Part shown: positions 50,669-64,000 of the stretch, piece after piece
Layout of the letters: the number at the start of each line of letters is the position of its first letter
Position numbering within the stretch: the stretch's first letter is position 1
Notes under the pieces: generated by a model
The model's input: only the letters and a program-made list of their open reading frames with translations
What the model was told of the DNA's origin: nothing
Databases searched by the model: none
Program-made: the position numbers and the translations under genes
From: Streptomyces sp. NBC_01803
GTDB taxonomy: Bacteria; Actinomycetota; Actinomycetes; Streptomycetales; Streptomycetaceae
Length of the DNA: 64,000 nt
Direction of reading: 5' to 3'
NCBI RefSeq assembly: GCF_035917415.1
Contig: NZ_CP109073.1
Span: 620,001-684,000 of the forward strand

Positions 50669-50965
50669 CTGATCGTCGACTTTCCCCTCCCCGACGCCCC
50701 CCACCGCCGGATCCTGTGGGACCGCTGCCTGGGCCCCGCCGTCCCCCGGGCCGACGACCTGGACCTGGACTTCTGCGCCGGATCCTTCGAACTGGCCGGC
50801 GGCAACATCCGCTCGATCGCGATCACCGCCGCCTACCTGGCCGCCGACTCCGGCCACCCCGTCACGATGCCCACCCTGATCCACGCGATCCAGCGCGAAT
50901 ACCAGAAACTCGGCCGCCTCACCCTGGCCTCCGAGTTCGGCCCGTACGTGGAGCTGCTGAGTTAG
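50669..50965 (+). pseudogene. C-terminal fragment of an AAA+ ATPase
   Basis: An open frame without a start encodes LIVDFPLPDAPHRRILWDRC, then CAGSFELAGGNIRSIAITAA and REYQKLGRLTLASEFGPY. This is the C-terminal lid domain of the AAA ATPases that accompany contractile-injection and GAP1-type loci in Streptomyces. The Walker A, Walker B and sensor-1 regions are gone and no initiation codon is available. It ends overlapping the stop of the convergent GAP1 gene by 4 bp, which suggests the two were once neighbouring genes of one system. Confidence 0.75.
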
Positions 50966-53259
50966 CGGCGCGATTGCCGGCCGGTGAGACGTCGGCCGAA
51001 CCGGCCCCACGCGCCCGATCGGCCGAGGTCCTGGAACGCCACCGCCCAGCGGACGTCCGCCCGCTTCAACCGCTCCTCGACGGCGGCGAGTTCCGCACTG
51101 GACAGCGTCCGGACCATCGGGCGCAGCACGCTGTCCAGCAGGTGCGAACGGGTCTCCTCCCAGACGGCGTTCACCTGCGGATAGGAACTCCACGCGATGA
51201 AACAGTCAGCCACGCGGACAGGAACGGTGCACAGTCGGTCGGCCATCCGCTTCGAACGGGCGGCCCGGCCGTAGGCCGTGATCAGATCGACATCGCCGCT
51301 GTTGACCAGCGCGGCCAGCTCTCCGTCCGGCCGCTCCCCCGTGAGCAGCCGGTACGCGAGCGCGTCGTAGACCCGTTCGAGCACAGCGGGTTCCACCGGC
51401 GCCCCGGCCGCGCGGAGCGTCAGCACCCGGTCGGTCCACCCCTCGGGGGCGGCGGAGCCGTTCCGCAGTTCCCGGGCGAAGTCCAGGAGTTGGAGTACCC
51501 GGCGCTCGCGGGGCCTCAGATCGTCGGAGAAGCCGCGCAACAGATCGTGGGCGAGATCGGGCACATCCGGGTCGTCGGCGGGCCCGTGGAGCGCCGCGCC
51601 GACGAGGTGGGACCACGTGCCGGCGGCGAGGTGCGCGCTGGAGCCGTTCTCGCCGAGCATCGCCCTGGCCTCGCCGGCGGTCGGCCTGTCGTCACCCCAC
51701 ACCAGCCGGACGGCGGTGCGCAGCAGCGTCGGGTCGGCCATCGGGGAGACCCGGCCGGCCCGCAGGACGGCGTTCAGGACGGCGACACGGCCGCCGTCGG
51801 CCGCCGCCGCCCGGGGCGCTTCGGCGCACATCCGCAGGTGCGGCAGGACCTGGCTCGCGGTGAACGGCATCGGGACCGTGGCGAGCAGCCGGGCCACGGC
51901 GGGCGGGTCGCCCTGGGCGAGCACTTCCCACTCGGCCAACAGCAGGGCGCGGAGGTCGAAGCGGTCCTCCAGCGTGAGGCGCACGGCGGGCGCGTGCGCC
52001 GCGTCCGGGTCGGCCAGCAGCGCCACGGCGAGGCGGCGCGCCACTCCGGCCAGCAGATCCGCGCAGTCGACACCCAGGATGTCGGCGACGCACAGCAGTT
52101 CCGCCGTCCGCGCGGGGCCGTGCCCGGCGTCCGCGACACCCGCGCGCAGCTCGGGTCCGAGCTCGCCGGCGAGGCTCCGCCTGAGATCGTCGGTGAGGGG
52201 AACGCGCCGCAGGCCGTCCAGATCCGTCCCGGCACCGGGCGAGCGGACCACGTCCGTGAGGACGAGCGAGGCGAACGGCACGAGCTCGACGGCCGCCAAA
52301 CGGGCATCGAGCACCGGGAACAGCCGGGTCGAGGCGGCCGTTTCGGCCGCCGTCCGGCTCCCACCGTGCGCGCTCAGCGCGTTCACAAGCCGGCGCAGCC
52401 GGTCGCGGTCCACCGTGTCCGCGTGGTGCCGCACCCAGTCGGCCGCCGCCGTTCGGCCCTCGGCGTCCAAGTCCAGCCCCGCGCACAGGGCCTCGACGGC
52501 GAGCGGGCCGTCGGACAGCACGGTCACCGCCTCGAAGAGCCGCGGTGCCCTGCCCAGCCAGACGTGGGCGGCGATCCGCGCCCAGACGTCCTCGGTCGGC
52601 GCGCCGGACGCGCGGCCGGTGCAGTCGTACACGCGGTAGCGGTGGCCGTGCCCGGCCAACCCGTGCGCGTCCTCGGGCAGGACCCCGATGATCTGCTGCC
52701 GGGCCAGCTCGGGGCGCCGCGTGTAGGTGGTGAACGTCAGCCGGTGGGCGATCTCGCGCGGCAGTACGGTGCCGGCGAGCGCGATCCACCGGGCGACGGC
52801 GGCGCTGTCCCGTTCGACGACGACGATGCGCGGCGCTGCGTCGTCCTGGATCACCTGGCGCAGATCGGCGAAGAAGCCCGCGAGCCATGAGGCCCTGGAG
52901 GCGGCGAACCCGATCAGCCGGTCCAGGTCCAGACCCCCCGGCCGCGCCCCGAAGGCGGTGATGGGCAGCGCGCCGTCGGGGAGTGTCGTGCCCAGGGGCA
53001 GATGCACGGCCTGGGCCTGGAAGCTCCCTCCGCCCGTGCAGACCGCACGGGCCACGAGCCGGCTGCCGTCGGCCAGCAGGCTGTGGCTGAACGTCTCGGG
53101 AAACGCGCCGAGTTCCGCGGTTGTGGGCCGCTGCGGCGCACCGGGCGGGGGCTCGTACCCGAGCAGCGGCTCGGCTTCCCTGAGCAGCCACGGGGATGCC
53201 CCGGGGCCGACCGACGTGAACCCCGACGCGGATGAGTACTGGAGCTGTATCAGGCCCAC
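50962..53259 (-). CDS. GTPase-associated protein 1 (GAP1), copy 1
   Basis: A 765-aa protein of the actinobacterial GTPase-associated protein 1 family. The N-terminal region (about 1-170) starts LIQLQYSSASGFTSVGPGAS and ends near the middle-domain segment HRLTFTTYTRRPELA. The rest, rich in Leu/Ala/Arg helices, corresponds to the GAP1 middle and C-terminal domains. There is no ATPase or nuclease motif; the protein is thought to be the large partner of a TRAFAC GTPase. It resembles copy 2 (62339-64000) very closely over the shared part. Here no GTPase, kinase or phosphatase gene lies directly downstream. GTG 53259 has GGGGAGGGG 6 nt upstream. Confidence 0.85.
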   Translation of the reverse strand: MGLIQLQYSSASGFTSVGPGASPWLLREAEPLLGYEPPPGAPQRPTTAELGAFPETFSHSLLADGSRLVARAVCTGGGSFQAQAVHLPLGTTLPDGALPITAFGARPGGLDLDRLIGFAASRASWLAGFFADLRQVIQDDAAPRIVVVERDSAAVARWIALAGTVLPREIAHRLTFTTYTRRPELARQQIIGVLPEDAHGLAGHGHRYRVYDCTGRASGAPTEDVWARIAAHVWLGRAPRLFEAVTVLSDGPLAVEALCAGLDLDAEGRTAAADWVRHHADTVDRDRLRRLVNALSAHGGSRTAAETAASTRLFPVLDARLAAVELVPFASLVLTDVVRSPGAGTDLDGLRRVPLTDDLRRSLAGELGPELRAGVADAGHGPARTAELLCVADILGVDCADLLAGVARRLAVALLADPDAAHAPAVRLTLEDRFDLRALLLAEWEVLAQGDPPAVARLLATVPMPFTASQVLPHLRMCAEAPRAAAADGGRVAVLNAVLRAGRVSPMADPTLLRTAVRLVWGDDRPTAGEARAMLGENGSSAHLAAGTWSHLVGAALHGPADDPDVPDLAHDLLRGFSDDLRPRERRVLQLLDFARELRNGSAAPEGWTDRVLTLRAAGAPVEPAVLERVYDALAYRLLTGERPDGELAALVNSGDVDLITAYGRAARSKRMADRLCTVPVRVADCFIAWSSYPQVNAVWEETRSHLLDSVLRPMVRTLSSAELAAVEERLKRADVRWAVAFQDLGRSGAWGRFGRRLTGRQSRR

Positions 53260-53715
53260 GCTCTGCCCCTCCCCATGCTGACGCCACCGAGGAGCGACGC
53301 GGGCTCCCCTCCCGACCACCGGCGGAACGCACCGAAGCCCCAGCTGTCCCTCACCACGTCGGCCGGTCCTCCTCGTCGTTGGGCGGATGCCTCGGCGACA
53401 CCGGGCCCGCCACCGGATCACCGGCGGAGCGATCACGGCCCACCGCTGCGAGCGACATTCCAGCAGGTCGCCGCCGCGGCGCACGGCCCACCACCAATTC
53501 CCGTCTATCCAGGGAAAGTTAAAGAGGAGCGACCTCCCCCTGATCATAGCGGCGCCCCCCGCGAGCGAACGCCGCGATCACCGCCGGCCCTACGGCCGGG
53601 GTCCCGTGCCCTGCTCCGTTACGGAGCCGACCCGGCCGCCGGTCCGACAGGCCGGGTTACGGTTGGCGCAGCCCGCCTCGCGCCCCGCTGCGGCCCGCGC
53701 ACCGAGAACGAGACG
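53260..53715. other. 456-bp region between GAP1 copy 1 and the next gene
   Basis: No gene recognised. It contains two short hairpins, CCGGCC-cta-CGGCCGG and CTCCG-tta-CGGAG, around 53581-53627 and an AT-richer patch near 53500-53560, which may hold the GAP1 promoter for the minus strand. Confidence 0.4.
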
Positions 53716-55639: not shown

Positions 55640-57124
55640 ATGGGGAACCGGCAGTTACCCGCGTTGCCGCAGTACCGGTCAGACGCGGTGACCCGGCGAT
55701 TGTGTGCCGCGGTGCATCTGGACGAAGGCTTCGCGCGTCAAGTGTACGAGGAGCTCACGGCGGACCGGTTGACCGCGGTCGGGCTGTCGCTGGGTGTCAA
55801 TCTGCTGGCGCTGGTGAGGCACGCCAAGGCGGCTGCCGAGCGGATCGACACCCGGGACCGCCGGCTGGCATGGCTGTTCGCCGGGCTGTGCGCGGCGGTA
55901 TCGCTCGCCTTCTATGGCTTCGCCAGCGGGACGTTCGCCGTAGGGGTGGCGGGTTGCTCGGCGGTACTCATCGCCGTCGGTACCGCGTGGGCGGTGGTCC
56001 ACACGGCGGAGAGTCAGGGCCGGGCCGCCGCGCAGGAGGTGTTCCGCCTAAGCGGGGAGCCCGAGGATCTGGTGCCGCCCGCACCGCCGGATGCCGAGGC
56101 CCGGCTGCGGGAGCTGAAAAAGGCCAACGTCGTTCCGTACACGGCGAGCGCCGAGCGCACCAACCCCTTCGTGGGCAGTGGTACGAAGATCAAAGAGGTG
56201 GTCTGGCAGCCCATCGACATCAGCCGCCCGGCCGATGCCCCCGGTGGCGGCAAGCTGGCCGTCAAGCCTTTCGACGCCGTGGACCTGCACACGTATGTCG
56301 CCAAGGAGATGGCGAACATCGCTGGCCTCGAAGGACTGCGGGCCAGGAACCGGCTCTATGTGCTGGGGACCCATGTGCGGCACCTCGGCGATGATCTGCT
56401 GCCCGATCCGCTCCAGAGACCGCGCACGCGGGTCCCCAAGCAGTTGGTGCAGGCGGGCCTGGTCCGGTCCGGCGCCGGAATGCGCACCTACCTGAGCCTG
56501 GAGCGGATCGGCGAGGGCGGCCGTGTCATCGTGTCGATGCATCTCCGAGCCCGACTGCGGCATCCCAGCCTCTCGTGGGAGGTCGCGGCCTACGCGATTC
56601 CCCCGGTGAGCAGCCACTACTGTCGCGTGGACTGGCTGCCGATCGACGGTTTCGAGCGCTGGTGGAGTCTGGTGCGGTACGCGACCGGGCAGACGTGGCC
56701 CGCGTTGCGCGGCGCGCCCGGCCGTATCCAGCGGCGGCGTTCCGAGTCGAACCGCAGGGCGCGCACGCTGGAAAAGTGGCGCAAGGAGATCAGCAAGCGC
56801 CATGCCCTGTACGACTACGGGGCCGTGGACAGTGTGCGGGAACGTGTCGGTGCCTGGGACCAGTTGGGCCACTCCGAACGCACGGACTCACAGGACTTCC
56901 TGCACCGTCTCCAGCAGGGGGTACTGATCGCCACCGAGCGGTTTCTGAAGGCCCATAACGTCGACACCAGTTCCTTCGACCAGGCCCAGCAGGTCATCAA
57001 CACCCAGACGTACAACTTCTCGGGAGACATCACCGGGCCGAGCAACTTCGGCAACAACGGACAGGTTACCTCGTACGGACAGGGCGCACAGCCGTCCGGA
57101 GCCCCCGGCGGCGGACACCCCTGA
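55640..57124 (+). CDS. Two-TM hypothetical protein with C-terminal amyloid-like motif
   Basis: A 494-aa protein. The N terminus RRLCAAVHLDEGFARQVYEEL is a conserved opening of many actinobacterial membrane proteins. Two transmembrane helices follow: LAWLFAGLCAAVSLAFYGFA and FAVGVAGCSAVLIAVGTAWA, residues about 75-118. A large domain without named motif spans about 150-440 and includes PSLSWEVAAYAIPPVSSHYC. Residues 457-482 hold the motif TYNFSGDITGPSNFGNNGQ..., after which there are only 12 residues. The same motif opens the next gene product. GGGGAGGG precedes the ATG. It could be a membrane effector or sensor; that is inference. Confidence 0.75.
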   Translation: MGNRQLPALPQYRSDAVTRRLCAAVHLDEGFARQVYEELTADRLTAVGLSLGVNLLALVRHAKAAAERIDTRDRRLAWLFAGLCAAVSLAFYGFASGTFAVGVAGCSAVLIAVGTAWAVVHTAESQGRAAAQEVFRLSGEPEDLVPPAPPDAEARLRELKKANVVPYTASAERTNPFVGSGTKIKEVVWQPIDISRPADAPGGGKLAVKPFDAVDLHTYVAKEMANIAGLEGLRARNRLYVLGTHVRHLGDDLLPDPLQRPRTRVPKQLVQAGLVRSGAGMRTYLSLERIGEGGRVIVSMHLRARLRHPSLSWEVAAYAIPPVSSHYCRVDWLPIDGFERWWSLVRYATGQTWPALRGAPGRIQRRRSESNRRARTLEKWRKEISKRHALYDYGAVDSVRERVGAWDQLGHSERTDSQDFLHRLQQGVLIATERFLKAHNVDTSSFDQAQQVINTQTYNFSGDITGPSNFGNNGQVTSYGQGAQPSGAPGGGHP

Positions 57125-57185
57125 CTCCGGCGGACGCATGTCCACTCGACGGCACACCTCCGACGGCAACCTTCCAGGAGTACCG

Positions 57186-57515
57186 ATGAGCACGTTCAAC
57201 TTCCACGGTGAGATCTCCGGGCCGAGCAACTTCGGTGACGGCGGGAAGATCGAGATTCATCAGCATGGGTCGAGTCCGGCCGATGCCCTGCGCCTGGCCA
57301 CCGAGCTGGTACGTCAGTTGCGGACCGAGAACCAGCCGACGCTCGCCGACCAGGCGGAAGTGGTGCGCGGCGAGCTGGTGCGGGCTGAGCAGGAGCAACG
57401 GCCCGCCGACCGCGGGCGGGTCCGACAAGCGCTGGAAACGATCTCGCTCGGGCTCGCCACGGGCAGCGGCGGTCTGGCCCTCGCCCAGGAGCTGGGGCGC
57501 GCCTTCGGACTGTGA
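57186..57515 (+). CDS. Small helical protein with N-terminal amyloid-like motif
   Basis: A 109-aa protein. Residues 3-28 are TFNFHGEISGPSNFGDGGK..., 13 of 26 positions identical to the C terminus of the preceding gene's product. The remaining 80 residues are helical (ADALRLATELVRQL, AEVVRGELVRAEQEQRP, RVRQALETISLGLATGSG) and resemble the short 'effector-associated' helical domain found in many actinobacterial small proteins with Gly/Asn-rich N termini. AGGAG lies 6 nt before the ATG. The gene is 61 bp downstream of its partner and probably co-transcribed. It is convergent with the kinase operon and separated from it by a terminator. Confidence 0.75.
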   Translation: MSTFNFHGEISGPSNFGDGGKIEIHQHGSSPADALRLATELVRQLRTENQPTLADQAEVVRGELVRAEQEQRPADRGRVRQALETISLGLATGSGGLALAQELGRAFGL

Positions 57516-57564: not shown

Positions 57565-58920
57565 TCACTTCGACCGTACGACGGCCTGCGCGCCGCCAAG
57601 TTCCAGCGTGAGTCCGGAGCGCAGCGGCACCGTCTGGCCCGGTGCGATCTGCTGGGTCGAGCCGTCCGAACGCGTCCCCGTCCATGCCGCGTCGGAACGG
57701 TTCGCGAGGCCGAACCGACCGGGCTTCTGCGGGTGTTCGGTCAGCTCGGCGACCAGCGTCGCGTCGCTGTAGTCGTGTCGTGCCGGCTCGGGCACCAGAT
57801 GGTGGGCGTGCACGCGGGCGGCACGGTGCAGCCGGACATGGCGTTCCACGCGCGGCAGGGGGGTGATCACGACCAGCCGGGGCGGCAGTACCAGAGGGCT
57901 GGCGCAGGACCAGCATGTCCCGGCGGTGGTCTCCTCGGGCTGGGTCATGTTCTGCCGCCCGCAGTGCGCGCAGTCGACGACCGCGTCAAGCACGGCCCGC
58001 AGCGCGTCACGCCACTGCGATTCCCGTACCCGCGCCAACGGGTCGCCCAGCCCTACGGTGAAGTTGTGCGTGAAGAGGTCCCGAAGAGCCGCAGGGGCCG
58101 CCTTCCAGGTGTGCAGAACCGTGGACTGCTCAGCGGGGTCGGGCACGTTGGAGCGGTCCTTCGGGTCGAAGACGAACAGCGGCTGCTTGCCGTACAGCTT
58201 CTTCTCGGCCGCCTCGTCCAGGCATCGGATGGCCAGCTCCTGTTTCCCCTTCAGCGGGTGATGGTTCATCAGCAGCATAAAGAGCAACACCGAAAGAGAG
58301 TGCAGATCGGTCTGGGTGCCGGGCTTCGCCCCGGGGTCCCCGCGCACCAGCTCGGGGGCCATGAACTCCATCGTCCCGGAGATGCCGCTGGTGTCACCCT
58401 CCACCACGGCGTTGTCGTTGTCGCACACCAGGACCTCGCCGGTGGCCGGGTCGAAGAAGATGTTGCCCCAAGAGATGTCCCGGTAGGCGATGCCCCGGGA
58501 GTGCAACGCCTGATACGCCTCCACCGTGTAGAGGCTCGCGGCCAGCAGGGCACGCGGCGTGGTGCGCAACTGCCTGCGGAACAACGCGGGCAGGCCCTTG
58601 AAGCGGTCCGGGCGAATGTCCATCAGATAACCGAAGGCGTCCGGCCAGGTGCCCCGGACGAACGTCGTCGGCCACAGGAAACGTTCGTCGTCGAAGTCCC
58701 GGGTCACCAACTCCTGGACGATGGCCTCCTGCCCGGGTGTCGCGCACGCCGGGTAGTACCACTTGAGCGCCTTGTCGCCGGTCGGGGTCGCCACTCGGTA
58801 CACCTCGCCCTGACCGCCGGCGCCGAGCATCCCGGTGATCCGGATCTCTTCGCCGCTGTCGGCGGTGAGGAGGGTGCCCGTGTCGAGCATGCCGGTCATC
58901 ATCTCTCCGTTGTCTGTCAC
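57565..58920 (-). CDS. Ser/Thr kinase with zinc ribbon and FHA-like tail (TerY-P triad kinase)
   Basis: A protein of up to 451 aa. The kinase domain spans about 20-330: Gly-rich loop GAGGQGEVYRV, Lys53 in KALKWYY, catalytic loop AYRDISWGN (Asp148, Asn153) in place of HRDxxxxN, and metal Asp167 in VCDNDN, which replaces DFG. A zinc ribbon CAHCGRQN...CWSC is followed by a C-terminal beta-rich segment RFGLANRSDAAW resembling an FHA-type fold. GTG 58920 overlaps the phosphatase stop as GTGA; in-frame ATGs at 58902, 58899 and 58890 are alternatives. With vWA and PP2C genes immediately upstream it makes the TerY-P kinase/phosphatase triad. Confidence 0.87.
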   Translation of the reverse strand: MTDNGEMMTGMLDTGTLLTADSGEEIRITGMLGAGGQGEVYRVATPTGDKALKWYYPACATPGQEAIVQELVTRDFDDERFLWPTTFVRGTWPDAFGYLMDIRPDRFKGLPALFRRQLRTTPRALLAASLYTVEAYQALHSRGIAYRDISWGNIFFDPATGEVLVCDNDNAVVEGDTSGISGTMEFMAPELVRGDPGAKPGTQTDLHSLSVLLFMLLMNHHPLKGKQELAIRCLDEAAEKKLYGKQPLFVFDPKDRSNVPDPAEQSTVLHTWKAAPAALRDLFTHNFTVGLGDPLARVRESQWRDALRAVLDAVVDCAHCGRQNMTQPEETTAGTCWSCASPLVLPPRLVVITPLPRVERHVRLHRAARVHAHHLVPEPARHDYSDATLVAELTEHPQKPGRFGLANRSDAAWTGTRSDGSTQQIAPGQTVPLRSGLTLELGGAQAVVRSK

Positions 58921-59792
58921 GTGTCACCGTCGGCCGCTGTGTGCTGTACCGGCCGCCTGCCGGCCGCCAGGGTGGTGTCGTCGCCCGAGTACTGCGCGGC
59001 CTTCGCCAGCCACTCGGGCAGCATGGCCCGCGCGCCCTCGGCGCTTTCCCCGGAGAGCCGCTGGTCGAGGCCTGTCATGAACTGAACGAAGCCCTCGTCC
59101 GAGGCGAAGCTCTTGGACAGGCCGTCCGTGGACAGCGCGATGAACCGCGGCGTACGGTCCGGCGCCACGATCGGCGCCCAGTGCACCCGCACCAGGTCCC
59201 AGGCATCACGGCTGCACAGCGATTCGGTCTCGTCTCCGAAGTCCGCCTCCAGTGGGGCGAGCGGACGGCCGACGTCGCCGTTGGGTTCGATCACCGTCAA
59301 CTCGCCGTCGCCGAGCTGCCAGGCCGCGAACAACCGCGGGGTCAGCACGGTGCCGATCAGCGTGGACCCGTACAGCACGAGCTTCCGCCCGTCGCCCATC
59401 ACGGGCGGGGACTCGGTCCCCGGCTCGGTCGCGCCCTGGTTCTGTTCGTACTGGCGCTGCCAGTGGTCCAGGACGCGGCGCTGCCAGGCGACGATCAGTC
59501 GGCGCGGCATGACGTTCCGGGCGTAGTGCATCAGCCGGCTGAGGCTGCGCGGCCCTTCGGGTCCCTCGGCGTTCGCCATGGCCGCGAACTCCCTGGCGTG
59601 CGCGGTGAACAGCTCCACCGCATACCGGGCCCCGACCCCGCTGCGGGCGTGCCGCGCCGAGCCGTGCCCGTCCGCGACCGCGAGGACCAGCGGGTCCTCC
59701 AGGGTGCCGCGGCCGTCGGCCGCGCACTCGTCCTGGTTGCACTGCTTGTTGACTCCCTGGACGCTCCCGGTGAGCGTCTCCCAGTGCGACAT
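58917..59792 (-). CDS. PP2C-family Ser/Thr phosphatase
   Basis: A 291-aa phosphatase. Metal-binding residues are in place: Asp21 (NQDE), Asp41 with DGHG (41-44), GSTLIGTVLT, WQLGDGELTV, Asp in STDGLSKS and Asp in GDDTTLA. The fold should remove phosphates placed by the co-encoded kinase on the vWA protein or other targets. The start is ATG 59792; GTG at 59807 or 59810 would overlap the vWA stop as GTGA and cannot be excluded. It is the middle member of the vWA - PP2C - kinase triad, transcribed on the minus strand. Confidence 0.87.
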   Translation of the reverse strand: MSHWETLTGSVQGVNKQCNQDECAADGRGTLEDPLVLAVADGHGSARHARSGVGARYAVELFTAHAREFAAMANAEGPEGPRSLSRLMHYARNVMPRRLIVAWQRRVLDHWQRQYEQNQGATEPGTESPPVMGDGRKLVLYGSTLIGTVLTPRLFAAWQLGDGELTVIEPNGDVGRPLAPLEADFGDETESLCSRDAWDLVRVHWAPIVAPDRTPRFIALSTDGLSKSFASDEGFVQFMTGLDQRLSGESAEGARAMLPEWLAKAAQYSGDDTTLAAGRRPVQHTAADGDT

Positions 59793-59803
59793 CCGCGGCT
59801 CGC

Positions 59804-60490
59804 TCACCACACGTCATCATCGTCGTCGCCCAGCACCGGCGGGGCGTACGGCGGCTGCTTCGCCATCACGACCGTCGGTTCCGCCACCGGCTGCGAAGCC
59901 GCCTTCACCGCGGCGGTCGAGGCCCACCGGATCGCCGCCGCGAGTTGCCTGGGGCTGTTGGCGTCCAGCGGCTGTAGCTCGGGATTGCCGAGGAATTCCT
60001 GCAGCACGCTCCGGTCCGCCTCCGCGCCGATGGCGATCGCCACCCGGACCGCTTTCTTGCCCCACGGCGTGGCGTCGACAGCCTTCAGCCCGATCTTCCA
60101 GTCGTCGGTGGGCACGCCGTCGGAGACCAGTGCCAGCACCGGCTTGAGCGCACGTTGCGGCATCGGTGGGGTCTGCAGCTCACGCGCCACCAACTGCAGC
60201 GCCTCGCCCAGATTGGTCACCCCGTCCACCTGGACGTCCTGCCAGGCGAAGTCGTCGACCGGAACCGGGTCCTTGTGCAGCCACCGTGCGGTGGTGGAGA
60301 AGGTGATGGTACGCACCAGCAGTTGGGCCGCGGGGTTGGCGTGCGCGACCGAGCGCATCTCCGGGATCGCCTCCCGGATCGCGTAGTTGAGCTGGCCGAT
60401 TCTCTCGCCCTGCATGGAGTACGAGCAGTCCAGCAGCCAGATGAAGTGGACCGGCCGGTTCGCCATCGGCCCACCCGGGATGTCACTCAT
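59804..60490 (-). CDS. TerY-type von Willebrand factor A protein
   Basis: A 228-aa vWA-domain protein. The MIDAS motif is complete: DxSxS as D21-C-S23-Y-S25, the Thr in GVTNLGEAL and the Asp in VSDGVPTDDW. This is the TerY pattern of tellurite/stress and phage-defence operons, where TerY is combined with a PP2C and a kinase. The tail ends in an acidic DDDDDVW. A strong GGAGG site is upstream of the ATG. It is a cytoplasmic metal-dependent protein-interaction module and a likely substrate or scaffold of the kinase. Confidence 0.9.
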   Translation of the reverse strand: MSDIPGGPMANRPVHFIWLLDCSYSMQGERIGQLNYAIREAIPEMRSVAHANPAAQLLVRTITFSTTARWLHKDPVPVDDFAWQDVQVDGVTNLGEALQLVARELQTPPMPQRALKPVLALVSDGVPTDDWKIGLKAVDATPWGKKAVRVAIAIGAEADRSVLQEFLGNPELQPLDANSPRQLAAAIRWASTAAVKAASQPVAEPTVVMAKQPPYAPPVLGDDDDDVW

Positions 60491-60767: not shown

Positions 60768-62342
60768 TCAGCGCCCCGGCCGATCGGGTACGGCCGCACC
60801 GCGCAGCCCCGAGCGGGCCAACACCCACAGCACCGGCTCCGCGGCCCGGCGCTGCTCACTGTCGAGCGCTCCCGCTCCGGTCGCCGCGTAGGCGCTCACC
60901 GCCCAGTAGCGGCCCGCGCCGAAGTCGTGGCCCAGACCCCGGACCAGCGCGCCGAGGCCGATGTTCTCCAGCCAGGTGTCGATCCTGGCGCCCGGTACGG
61001 GCAATGAGGTGATCCGGTCAAGGACGTCCCGTTTGGTGACCACCGTGGCCACCGGTATACGCCGACGCCGCCCGGTGAGTGCCGCGAGTTCGCCGGTCAG
61101 GCGCTGGTAGGTGTCCATCGGCCCCAGGTCGGCGGGGCGGGCGTCGGCCGCGAGTTCGGCGTCGGCCGCCCCCAGCGCGCGTCGCACCTGCGGTTCGGCG
61201 AGTACGTCGGCGACCAGGATCACCCCGTCGGCGTGGGCCAGATACTGCTGTTCGCGTAGGGACCCGGCGTCGCGCAACGACTCGCCCATCGGGTCGTACA
61301 GATAGAGCAGCCGCCGTCGCCTGCCGTGGCCGATGAGCAGCATGAAGGCCCGGGGCTGGCCGCCCTGCGTCTTGAGCGCCCAACCAGCCTGGTTCAGTTG
61401 CTGGTTGAGCATCCCGGCGTCCCGCTGATCGGTCGCGGAAGCGTACTCGACGGTCAGCCGGCTCCGCCGCGACCAGGACTGCAGCCCCGCCGCCATCGCC
61501 GCCATCAGCATGGTCTTGCCGGAGGACCGGCCGCCGATCAGGGGCACATGGACCACCCGTGTGCTGCCGACCGCCTCGGGAAGCAGCTGGTCACAGTGCG
61601 GACAGCGGGCAGCGAGGCGCGCCCGGCCCGCCAGAGACGTGGTGACAAGACGCCGCCCGCACGCGCACACGTGCCACAGCGCGCCGTAGCGGCCGGGGCG
61701 CAGCTCGCCGTGCGCGACGTCGCAGTTCGGGCAGCGGTGAACGGCCAGCGGGAACGGACGGTAGCAGCCGGGATACGGGCACTTCATCCGAATACGGCGG
61801 AGCAGTACCCCGAGCCGTTCCGTACTGCGGAGGGCGAGGACGGCTGTCGCGGCCAACAGCCACATCAGGCCGAGCAACAGCCCAAAGACGATCATGATCA
61901 GGGAGGTGAGCAGCGCCGCGAGCAGCGCTCCCAGGACCGCCCCGGCCGCCGTTCCCGGGGCCAGGAGGCGCATCACGGTACGGGTGAACCAGTTCTCACC
62001 CGGTCGTCCGGTGGCCGGGTCGCGGCCCTGTAAGAGCCGCGCGGCCCAGTGCTGCAGCCACTGCATGGTCAGCCGGTACCACATGTCGCGCAGGGCGGTA
62101 CGTGCCGCGGACCCGGCGTCCAGCCACATCTGCCGTGACCAGTACGCGCGGTGGACGGGCTCGCCGGGGGTGACGCCCGGCAGCCGCGGATCCGGTGCGC
62201 CGACCCGCCAGGGGCCGAGGACCCTTCCGGCGGCCTCAATCGACTTGCCGAGGAACAGCCAGAGCGTGTAGCCGAGGCAGAGCGGCACCGCCACCACGCC
62301 GGTGACCCAGAGCGCGGCCGTCATCAGGGTCGTCTCACTCAC
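60768..62342 (-). CDS. TRAFAC-clade GTPase with transmembrane and zinc-ribbon regions
   Basis: A 524-aa protein. A first TM helix is at about 8-30 and further hydrophobic segments at about 130-170. Then comes a cysteine-rich zinc-ribbon part (CPYPGC...CPNCDV, CACGR...CPHCD, 188-250). The GTPase domain has Walker A GGRSSGKT (270-277), a DxxG switch at D350-P-M-G353 and the base-specificity motif TKRD (436-439). It is the GTPase partner of GAP1; its GTG start overlaps the GAP1 stop by 4 bp (GTGA). It is probably located at the membrane, regulating the kinase module downstream. Confidence 0.87.
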   Translation of the reverse strand: MSETTLMTAALWVTGVVAVPLCLGYTLWLFLGKSIEAAGRVLGPWRVGAPDPRLPGVTPGEPVHRAYWSRQMWLDAGSAARTALRDMWYRLTMQWLQHWAARLLQGRDPATGRPGENWFTRTVMRLLAPGTAAGAVLGALLAALLTSLIMIVFGLLLGLMWLLAATAVLALRSTERLGVLLRRIRMKCPYPGCYRPFPLAVHRCPNCDVAHGELRPGRYGALWHVCACGRRLVTTSLAGRARLAARCPHCDQLLPEAVGSTRVVHVPLIGGRSSGKTMLMAAMAAGLQSWSRRSRLTVEYASATDQRDAGMLNQQLNQAGWALKTQGGQPRAFMLLIGHGRRRRLLYLYDPMGESLRDAGSLREQQYLAHADGVILVADVLAEPQVRRALGAADAELAADARPADLGPMDTYQRLTGELAALTGRRRRIPVATVVTKRDVLDRITSLPVPGARIDTWLENIGLGALVRGLGHDFGAGRYWAVSAYAATGAGALDSEQRRAAEPVLWVLARSGLRGAAVPDRPGR

Positions 62343-64000
62343 GGGCGGCCACCCTTGCGGGGTGGTTCCACATCGCCCCAGCGCGGTCCCGCCGCAGTGT
62401 CCTTGCGGCCCCGGCCGGTGAGGCGTCTGCCGAACCGCCCGAACGCCCCCGGTCGGCTGAATGCCTGGAACTCCTCCGCCCAGCGCGCTCCGGCCCGCTC
62501 CAACTGCCTCTCGACGGCGGAAAGGTCCGCGTCGGGCAGCGCCCGGACGATGGGGCGCAGCACCCGGTCGAGTAGGTGGGAACGGGTCTCCTGCCAGGCC
62601 ACGCTCGCCTGCGGGTGCGAACTCCACACGGCGAAACAGTCGGCCACGTAGGCGGGGACGACGCGCAGCCGGTCCCCCACCCGCTTCGACTGGGCGGCCC
62701 GGCCGTATGCCGCGATCAGATCGGCGTCACCGCTGAGGATCAGCGCGCGCAACTCTCCGTCCGGCCGCTCCTCGGAGAGCAGCCGGCGCGCGAGCGCCCC
62801 GTAGGCCCGTTCGAGCACGGCGGGTTCCACGGGCTCCGCGACCGCCCGGAGCGTCAGAGCCCGGTCGATCCAGCCCTTGGGGGCCGCCGAGCCGTCCCGG
62901 AGTTCGCGGGCGAATTCCAGGAGCTGGAGCGCCCGGCGCTCGCGCGGCTCCAGGTCGTCGGAGATGGCGTGCAGCAGATCGTGGGCGAGATCGGGTACGT
63001 CGGGATCGTCGGCGGGGCCCTGGAGCGCCGCCTTGACGAGGTCGGACCAGGTGCCGGCCGCGAGGTGCGCGCTGGAGCCGGTCTCGCCCAGCATCAGCCT
63101 CGCCTCACGCGCGGTCGGCGGATCGCCGTCCCACACCAGTCGGACGGCGGTGCGCAGCATCGTCGGCTCGGCGATCGGGGAGACCCGGCCGGCCCGCAGG
63201 ACGGCGTTCAGGACGGTGACACGGTCGCCGCGGGCCGCCGCCACCCGAGGAGCCTCAGCGCACATCCGCAGGTGCGGCAGGGCCTGGCTCTCGGTGAACG
63301 GCAACGGGACCCTGGCAAGCAGCCGGGCGGCGGCGGGCGGGTCGCCCTGGGCGAGGAAGTCGAGTTCGGCCAGCAACGCGGCGCGGAGGTCGAAGCGGTC
63401 CTCCAGCGCGAAGCGTACGGCGGGCGTGCGCGCCGAGTCCGGGTCCGCGAGCAGGGCGACGGAGAGCCGATGCGCCACGTCGGGCAGAAGGTCCGCACAG
63501 TCCACGCCGAGCGTGTCCGCGACGCACAGCAGTTCCGCCGACCGCGAAGAGCGGTTGCCGGTGTCCGCGACGCCCGCGCGCAGATCGGGGCCGAGCTCGG
63601 CGGCGAGGCGCCGCCTGAGATCCTCGGTGAGCGTGACTCGCCGCAGGACCGCGAGGCCGGTCCCGGCCTCCGTCCCGGCGCCGGGCGAGCGGACGGCGAC
63701 GGTCAGCACGAGGGCGGCGAGCGGCGCGATCGTGCTGACCGGCAGCCTGCCGTCGAGCGCCGCGAACAGCCGCGTCAGAGCAGCCGTCTCTGCCGCCGTC
63801 CGGTTCCCGGTGGGCGCGCCCAGCGCGTTCACGAGCCGGTGCAGCCGGTTGCCGCCCAGCGTGTCCGCGTGGTGCTGTGCCCAGTCGGCCGCCGCGGTGC
63901 GGCCGTCGGCGTTCAGCTCCAGGCCGGCGCACAGTGCCTCGACGGCGAGCGGGCCGGGCGCGAAGTGGCCGTCCGGCAGCGCGGCCGCCGCCTTGAACAG
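62339..64000 (-). CDS. GTPase-associated protein 1 (GAP1), copy 2, N-terminally cut by window edge
   Basis: The visible 553 residues are the GAP1 middle and C-terminal domains, open to the right-hand edge, so the N terminus lies outside. Segments such as EETRSHLLD/QETRSHLLD, GSSAHLAAGTWS and DDPDVPDLAHDLL are shared with copy 1 at 50962-53259. The two proteins look roughly three-quarters identical by eye. The last 20 residues are extra (KDTAAGPRWGDVEPP). It is coupled to the GTPase by a 4-bp overlap and is the first visible gene of the conflict operon. Confidence 0.88.
   Translation of the reverse strand: MFKAAAALPDGHFAPGPLAVEALCAGLELNADGRTAAADWAQHHADTLGGNRLHRLVNALGAPTGNRTAAETAALTRLFAALDGRLPVSTIAPLAALVLTVAVRSPGAGTEAGTGLAVLRRVTLTEDLRRRLAAELGPDLRAGVADTGNRSSRSAELLCVADTLGVDCADLLPDVAHRLSVALLADPDSARTPAVRFALEDRFDLRAALLAELDFLAQGDPPAAARLLARVPLPFTESQALPHLRMCAEAPRVAAARGDRVTVLNAVLRAGRVSPIAEPTMLRTAVRLVWDGDPPTAREARLMLGETGSSAHLAAGTWSDLVKAALQGPADDPDVPDLAHDLLHAISDDLEPRERRALQLLEFARELRDGSAAPKGWIDRALTLRAVAEPVEPAVLERAYGALARRLLSEERPDGELRALILSGDADLIAAYGRAAQSKRVGDRLRVVPAYVADCFAVWSSHPQASVAWQETRSHLLDRVLRPIVRALPDADLSAVERQLERAGARWAEEFQAFSRPGAFGRFGRRLTGRGRKDTAAGPRWGDVEPPRKGGRP

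Follow-up and report, generated by a model that had tools for sequence, protein, structure and literature searches.

Two adjacent genes in the window (the whole 64,000-nucleotide stretch of Streptomyces sp. NBC_01803 DNA that was analysed) encode a 494-residue membrane protein, p494, and a small helical protein, p109, which carry matching short tags at the C terminus of the first and the N terminus of the second. The pairing of the tags, the adjacency of the genes, the co-evolution of the tags, the decay of the tag in unpaired p109 genes and the recurrence of the arrangement in distant relatives all speak for a signalling pair. We put the probability at roughly 0.6 that p494 and p109 are the two components of an NLR-independent signalling pair and are joined by a short homotypic motif, probably cross-beta.

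Results

Matching terminal tags in two adjacent gene products

The two genes are read in the same direction, and the ATG of p109 at 57186 follows the p494 stop codon after a gap of 61 nt. The features of the pair are as follows.

55640..57124, + strand: p494, 494-aa membrane protein with C-terminal tag (ORF; relatives; AlphaFold2)
55865..55996, + strand: p494 hydrophobic segments, residues 76-94 and 101-119, inside a helical hairpin at residues 55-136 (hydropathy; AlphaFold2)
57008..57085, + strand: p494 C-terminal tag, residues 457-482 (alignment to p109; conserved with variation in relatives)
57176..57180, + strand: AGGAG, resembling a ribosome-binding site, upstream of p109 (direct sequence reading)
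57186..57515, + strand: p109, small protein with N-terminal tag and four-helix bundle (relatives; AlphaFold2)
57192..57269, + strand: p109 N-terminal tag, residues 3-28 (alignment to p494; AlphaFold2)
57276..57506, + strand: p109 four-helix bundle, residues 31-107 (pLDDT about 85-94)

An earlier note on this DNA had claimed a 26-residue motif shared by the two proteins, and this motif pair is real. Residues 457-482 of p494 and 3-28 of p109 align without gaps at 13 identical positions of 26; both tags are polar and rich in Gly and Asn, and each window protein holds a single copy. The local BLOSUM62 score of the two proteins was 93, which was equalled by none of 3000 shuffles of p109 (maximum 68), and composition-preserving shuffles of the p109 tag alone scored no higher than 48 in 20,000 trials, as compared with 81 for the real tag. 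The identical DNA run common to both tags, given in the earlier note as 17 nt, is 19 nt long (at 57033 and 57217). When the p109 tag was compared with the 542 stop-to-stop frames of at least 60 codons in the window, p494 scored 81 and the next unrelated frame 45. When residues 1-30 of p109 were searched against the 5.85-Mb genome, the matches were p109 itself, p494 at E 5.6e-5 and a third at E 0.42; below that value, no gene of this genome other than p494 and p109 matched the tag.

The AlphaFold2 model of p494 (mean pLDDT 84.9) has disordered residues 1-13 and 462-494, hairpin helices at residues 55-96 and 99-136, and then a soluble part that ends in the disordered tail from residue 462, so that most of the tag is predicted to be disordered. 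The two hydrophobic segments agree with an earlier assignment of two transmembrane segments. In the p109 model, residues 1-27 are disordered and are followed by a confident four-helix bundle. The soluble part of p494 showed weak likeness to helix-grip and KA1 folds, with no significant match among the Foldseek results. Searches with p494 found 183 relatives, of which the best 120 were listed, and searches with p109 found 33, every one with a named source being from Streptomyces. The nearest named relatives in these searches are Streptomyces proteins.

Several known families were considered for the two proteins. No Pfam family matched p494 at its cut-off, the one mention being SLATT_1 at E 0.43. 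Like the SLATT 2TM effectors, p494 has a helical hairpin containing two hydrophobic segments, but its SLATT_1 score of 11.1 bits lies below the cut-off of 26.3 and the assignment was rejected. DUF5955 was likewise rejected for p109, for which no match to this family was found to E 0.5 and profile comparison with hhalign gave a probability of 26%; DUF5955 and TCAD2 are matched by partners in distant loci (see below), but p109 matches neither. An effector-associated domain (EAD) was not adopted for the common unit: this tag spans about 26 residues and, in both proteins, is predicted to be disordered and not a folded domain. No NLR-type Pfam domain was found in p494 or in p109, which consists of the tag and four helices, no PADLOC model matched either protein, and p494 had no match among the phage records searched.

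The tagged pair is conserved and its tags co-vary

A scan of genome contigs with the p494 alignment gave 62 loci. In the 52 close ones (L004-L055), p494 identity ranged from 38 to 77%, and all but L051 (Actinobacteria bacterium OV450) are recorded under Streptomyces. A p109 relative lay directly downstream of p494 in all 52, at a spacing of -4 to 108 nt, counted up to the point where the alignment begins. This adjacency is not circular, since the loci were found through p494 and not through p109. Thus, a check of whether homologues carry the motif as an unpaired low-complexity stretch came out against that possibility. Among 295 genomes of the window's genus, 26 had a p494 orthologue at an identity of at least 41%, and 25 of these also had a p109 match. 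The pair is patchy in its distribution, being found in about 9% of these genomes; since five candidates were scored per genome for p494 and for the kinase described below, absences in these counts are soft. In the remaining p494 genome (G173, locus L154), neither p109 nor another matching tag was found near p494 in the 10 kb examined. The tail of this p494, NFHGSINGPGIYGDRG, resembles a p109-type tag, and the p494 gene adjoins a GAP1 gene.

Partners carry the same variant of the tag. Both proteins of locus L044 contain YNIGSVSGGQNQFG and both proteins of L024 contain YNINNVNGPSNIGP, and the tags of L012 read VQAGVIGDNGT in one partner and VNAGIIGDNGT in the other. Co-variation was quantified in 51 distinct pairs, two of an initial 53 having been dropped for their identical tags. 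Tags scored a mean of 74.2 against that of their own partner and 52.1 otherwise, a value reached in none of 20,000 permutations, and the true partner had a mean rank of 6.9 where 26 would be expected. Distances between the tags correlated at r 0.80, and removal of the p494-body and p109-helix distances left a partial Mantel r of 0.69, as high as which none of 5000 permutations came (maximum 0.29). The best partial r among 230 other windows of the p494 body was 0.37. The tags thus vary together beyond phylogeny. At identical residues, codons agreed in 486 of 660 cases (74%) within pairs and in 69% between pairs, so that gene conversion can have played at most a minor part.

The tag of p109 decays in the absence of p494

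A p109-like match (E 0.001) was present in 49 of the 295 genomes, 25 with a p494 orthologue and 24 without. Fourteen of the latter (L096-L101 and L103-L110) were taken as the orphan set, and 10 weaker ones, including G238, were left out. Within about 5 kb on each side of these 14 orphans, as far as the contig allows, no p494 or kinase-cluster gene was found, and a search of their genomes for p494 gave nothing closer than distant relatives (no more than 32% identical across most of the protein) or weak matches of short length, and in some cases no match. Compared with the nearest paired protein, orphan p109 retained 70% identity in the helical domain and 43% in the tag, which was shortened and scrambled. 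For 51 paired proteins compared at a helical identity of 30 to 62%, mean identity was 57% for the tag and 59% for the helices. A loose tag pattern was matched by 50 of 51 paired proteins and still by 7 of the 14 orphans, some of which are near-duplicates (L108 and L110), and the decay is therefore partial. A conserved GLPPNRGRIRSALE-type helical core is kept by the orphans without p494. This conservation of the helical domain implies that p109 has some role of its own without p494.

The pair adjoins a kinase, phosphatase and GTPase cluster

The genes beyond the pair lie on the opposite strand.

57565..58920, - strand: protein kinase, convergent to the pair (Pkinase E 2.1e-14; found in 50 of 52 pair loci)
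58917..59810, - strand: PP2C phosphatase (PP2C_2 E 3.8e-31)
59804..60490, - strand: vWA protein (VWA E 1.1e-4, 23.0 bits, against a Pfam cut-off of 23.8)
60768..62627, - strand: DO-GTPase2 protein (E 4.3e-10)
62339..63832, - strand: GAP1 protein, C domain matched (GAP1-C E 3e-140)

Pfam thus bore out the kinase, phosphatase and GTPase neighbours that had been proposed, identifying the kinase, PP2C, DO-GTPase2 and GAP1. A second GAP1 paralogue at 50962-53547 (-) has GAP1-N2, M and C domains, the paralogue at 62339-63832 has GAP1-C only, and the two flank the region. The final 80 or so residues of the kinase (57565-57870) look FHA-like by eye; Pfam FHA was absent to E 0.5.

In the conserved loci, the kinase is mostly accompanied by PP2C, vWA, GTPase and GAP1 genes, some of the loci being truncated; in L030 it lies about 4 kb off, and L052 and L053 hold the pair without cluster genes. 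Across the 295 genomes of the genus, the kinase (E 1e-100 or below) occurred in 31, 8 of them without a p494 orthologue, and in 23 of the 26 p494 genomes (Fisher p 1.8e-24). Two genomes, G173 and G038, have p494 without the kinase, yet abutting a GAP1 gene. The pairs L052, L053 and L162 are without the kinase cluster, and their tags still match. In genome G238 (L155), the kinase lies beside the latter half of a p109-like helical domain, perhaps a remnant of the pair, and p494 was not detected at the locus.

The neighbours, namely DO-GTPase, GAP1, kinase, PP2C and a vWA protein just below the cut-off, make up the gene set of the third theme of the GAP1-N2 GTPase-centric conflict systems, in which the vWA protein stands alone (PMC7159879). 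In the part of that account available to us, p494 and p109 are unmentioned, and the word "amyloid" is not in its main text (PMC7159879).

Distant relatives pair with other tags and other partner domains

Distant p494 relatives, with 20 to 30% identity, were found in Saccharopolyspora, one cyanobacterium, one acidobacterium and one Anaerolineae bacterium. With the cyanobacterial relative as the query, 347 relatives were found among the candidates scored, of which 120 were listed. FHA domains were present in 12 of these 120 listed relatives, and many of the listed tails resemble NNGVIVSGGSIQAESLAVG, with an ad hoc pattern fitting 66 of the 120. The p494 relatives P0190, P0208 and P0230 are extended at the N terminus, and their precomputed domains include FHA. 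On the p494 side, a zinc-ribbon was also found. The distant families are sparse: of 296 genomes from the phylum, one distant query matched 9 and another matched 8.

For each distant locus, the p494 tail was compared with the other frames of the locus to find which of them matched it best. In 27 of the 30 loci, this was the adjacent gene (10/10, 9/9, 6/9 and 2/2), a set that includes close relatives (L064/L065, L059/L062, L111/L113/L118 and L115-L117). The margin was thin in L058 (49 vs 47) and L114 (43 vs 40), and no adjacent matching partner was found in L141, L142 or L143, of which L142 lies at a contig end. The partner lies upstream in L057, and in L063 the tag of the partner is internal, near residue 91 of its 224. 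Twenty-five pairs picked by hand, of which 22 were distant, were also compared in a matrix; for 19 of them the true partner ranked first, with a mean score of 70.8 for own partners and 29.4 for others.

The folded domain of the partner differs between loci. In L119, the sole TIR case, the partner is fused to a CAP12-PCTIR_TIR domain, a CBASS/Pycsar-type TIR (E 1.6e-25). Partners matched DUF5955 in L061 (4e-8) and L057 (1.9e-6) and TCAD2 in L063 (5.9e-12); the DUF5955 match of the L060 partner was under the cut-off, and the L053 partner had none. In L164 (Nonomuraea gerenzanensis), GSNFGNAP-like repeated units are present in both partners and may form a beta-solenoid repeat.

Discussion

Mutual recognition of the p494 and p109 tags, which would place both under mutual constraint, is well supported by their joint variation, and from this constraint we infer direct like-with-like recognition. 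In the mechanism that we propose, the tags would be unfolded in the resting monomers, and a signal would arrive by way of the p494 fold and the adjacent GTPase, kinase and phosphatase cluster. In response, like tags would stack on one another, most likely in a parallel cross-beta arrangement, and one tag would template the other, so that the attached domain clusters. The output would be the domain of the partner (the four-helix bundle here, TIR in one relative), and p494 would serve as the membrane-bound input or scaffold. Templating of this kind is favoured because the two sides are identical and recur so with many sequences, which matches the prediction for in-register stacking. Defence or cell death is a plausible outcome, and it is the genomic context that suggests a role in defence.

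The direction of signalling is little better than an even guess. Input through p494 is favoured by the FHA domains on the p494 side, the kinase and phosphatase neighbours and the TIR partner; by analogy, the C-terminal position of the p494 tag counts against it, since BELL and HET-S effectors carry their tag at that end (PMC7889193). An earlier description of p494 as a membrane-linked effector is accordingly upheld as to the membrane; as to the effector, p494 may instead be the input side, given the FHA-bearing relatives and the TIR of the L119 partner.

BASS motifs that link BELL effectors to NLRs were reportedly described by Dyrka et al. in 2020. As far as the published accounts available to us in part extend, such motifs connect BELL effectors with NLRs in bacteria (PMC7889193, PMC8086366). 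The window pair shares with them a short Gly/Asn-rich motif that lies C-terminally in one protein and N-terminally in that of the neighbouring gene, as well as bacterial hosts of multicellular habit, and some TIR association has been reported for BASS (PMC7889193). It differs in that its partners are without an NLR and in that the motif at the C terminus is borne by a 2TM protein of 494 residues and not by a small BELL domain. Two published BASS3-type peptides showed marginal likeness to 102 tags, with p no higher than 0.01 in 12 of the 204 comparisons. In the same partial account, HET-S/NWD2 and other fungal pairs have adjacent genes, terminal motifs and a C-terminal motif on a membrane-linked protein (PMC7889193), as does the window pair; in the latter, no NLR and no HeLo-type domain was found. 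Thus, of the amyloid-signalling layout first proposed for this locus, the matched terminal tags in adjacent genes stand, and because there is no NLR the layout is not that of classical HET-s/NWD2 or BASS. Deep learning has uncovered a new pair of fungal motifs, which, as far as we could consult its description, implies that unlisted motif families exist (PMC12261475).

Other accounts of the tags were weighed. The two tags might co-fold into a small finite beta structure, by strand exchange or as a swapped hairpin, giving a static p494-p109 complex without templating. Co-evolution, adjacency and orphan decay fit any direct contact, and the tags are short and single in each window protein. However, a heteromeric contact needs complementary sides, whereas near-identity recurs here with many different sequences, and the Nonomuraea partners have repeated units in common; we regard a finite co-fold as unlikely, at about one chance in five.

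Both tags might instead be short linear motifs for one third protein, such as a component of the cluster, with which they would co-evolve. The tie of the pair to the kinase and GTPase genes is what this explanation would predict, but the tags also match in the three pairs without the kinase cluster and in the distant relatives, where p109-type and kinase-cluster genes were sought with the listed queries. It is improbable on these grounds.

That p109 is an inhibitor or immunity protein, restraining a toxic pore-forming p494 through the tag, would suit a small partner beside a 2TM protein and the near-constant company of p109 (25 of 26 p494 genomes). The TIR partner and the zinc-ribbon or FHA on the p494 side look like signalling, however, and G173 lives with p494 alone, which makes such restraint quite improbable. 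An artefact arising from low-complexity sequence, a recent duplication of the tag or gene conversion, to which the Gly/Asn-rich tags, the 19-nt identical DNA and the slightly raised codon identity within pairs might point, is contradicted by the shuffles, the tag co-evolution, the codon comparison and the matching of unlike sequences in several phyla, and is very improbable.

The favoured signalling pair may belong to something broader. We give an even chance to a widespread bacterial superfamily of NLR-independent pairs, in each of which a 2TM protein, sometimes with FHA, has a cross-beta tag at its end and recruits an adjacent partner with the matching tag, the output domain of the partner being interchangeable between four-helix, DUF5955, TCAD2 and TIR. 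The tags would have diversified into many mutually distinct sequences that make up a natural like-with-like code, and one Streptomyces pair would have come under a GTPase, kinase and phosphatase switch. The pair family offers distant matched tags, natural mismatched pairs, natural losses as controls and one TIR partner swap. If the tags do template each other, they would represent bacterial prion-like signalling beyond NLR/BELL pairs, at a point where it meets the GTPase-centric conflict systems predicted from sequence.
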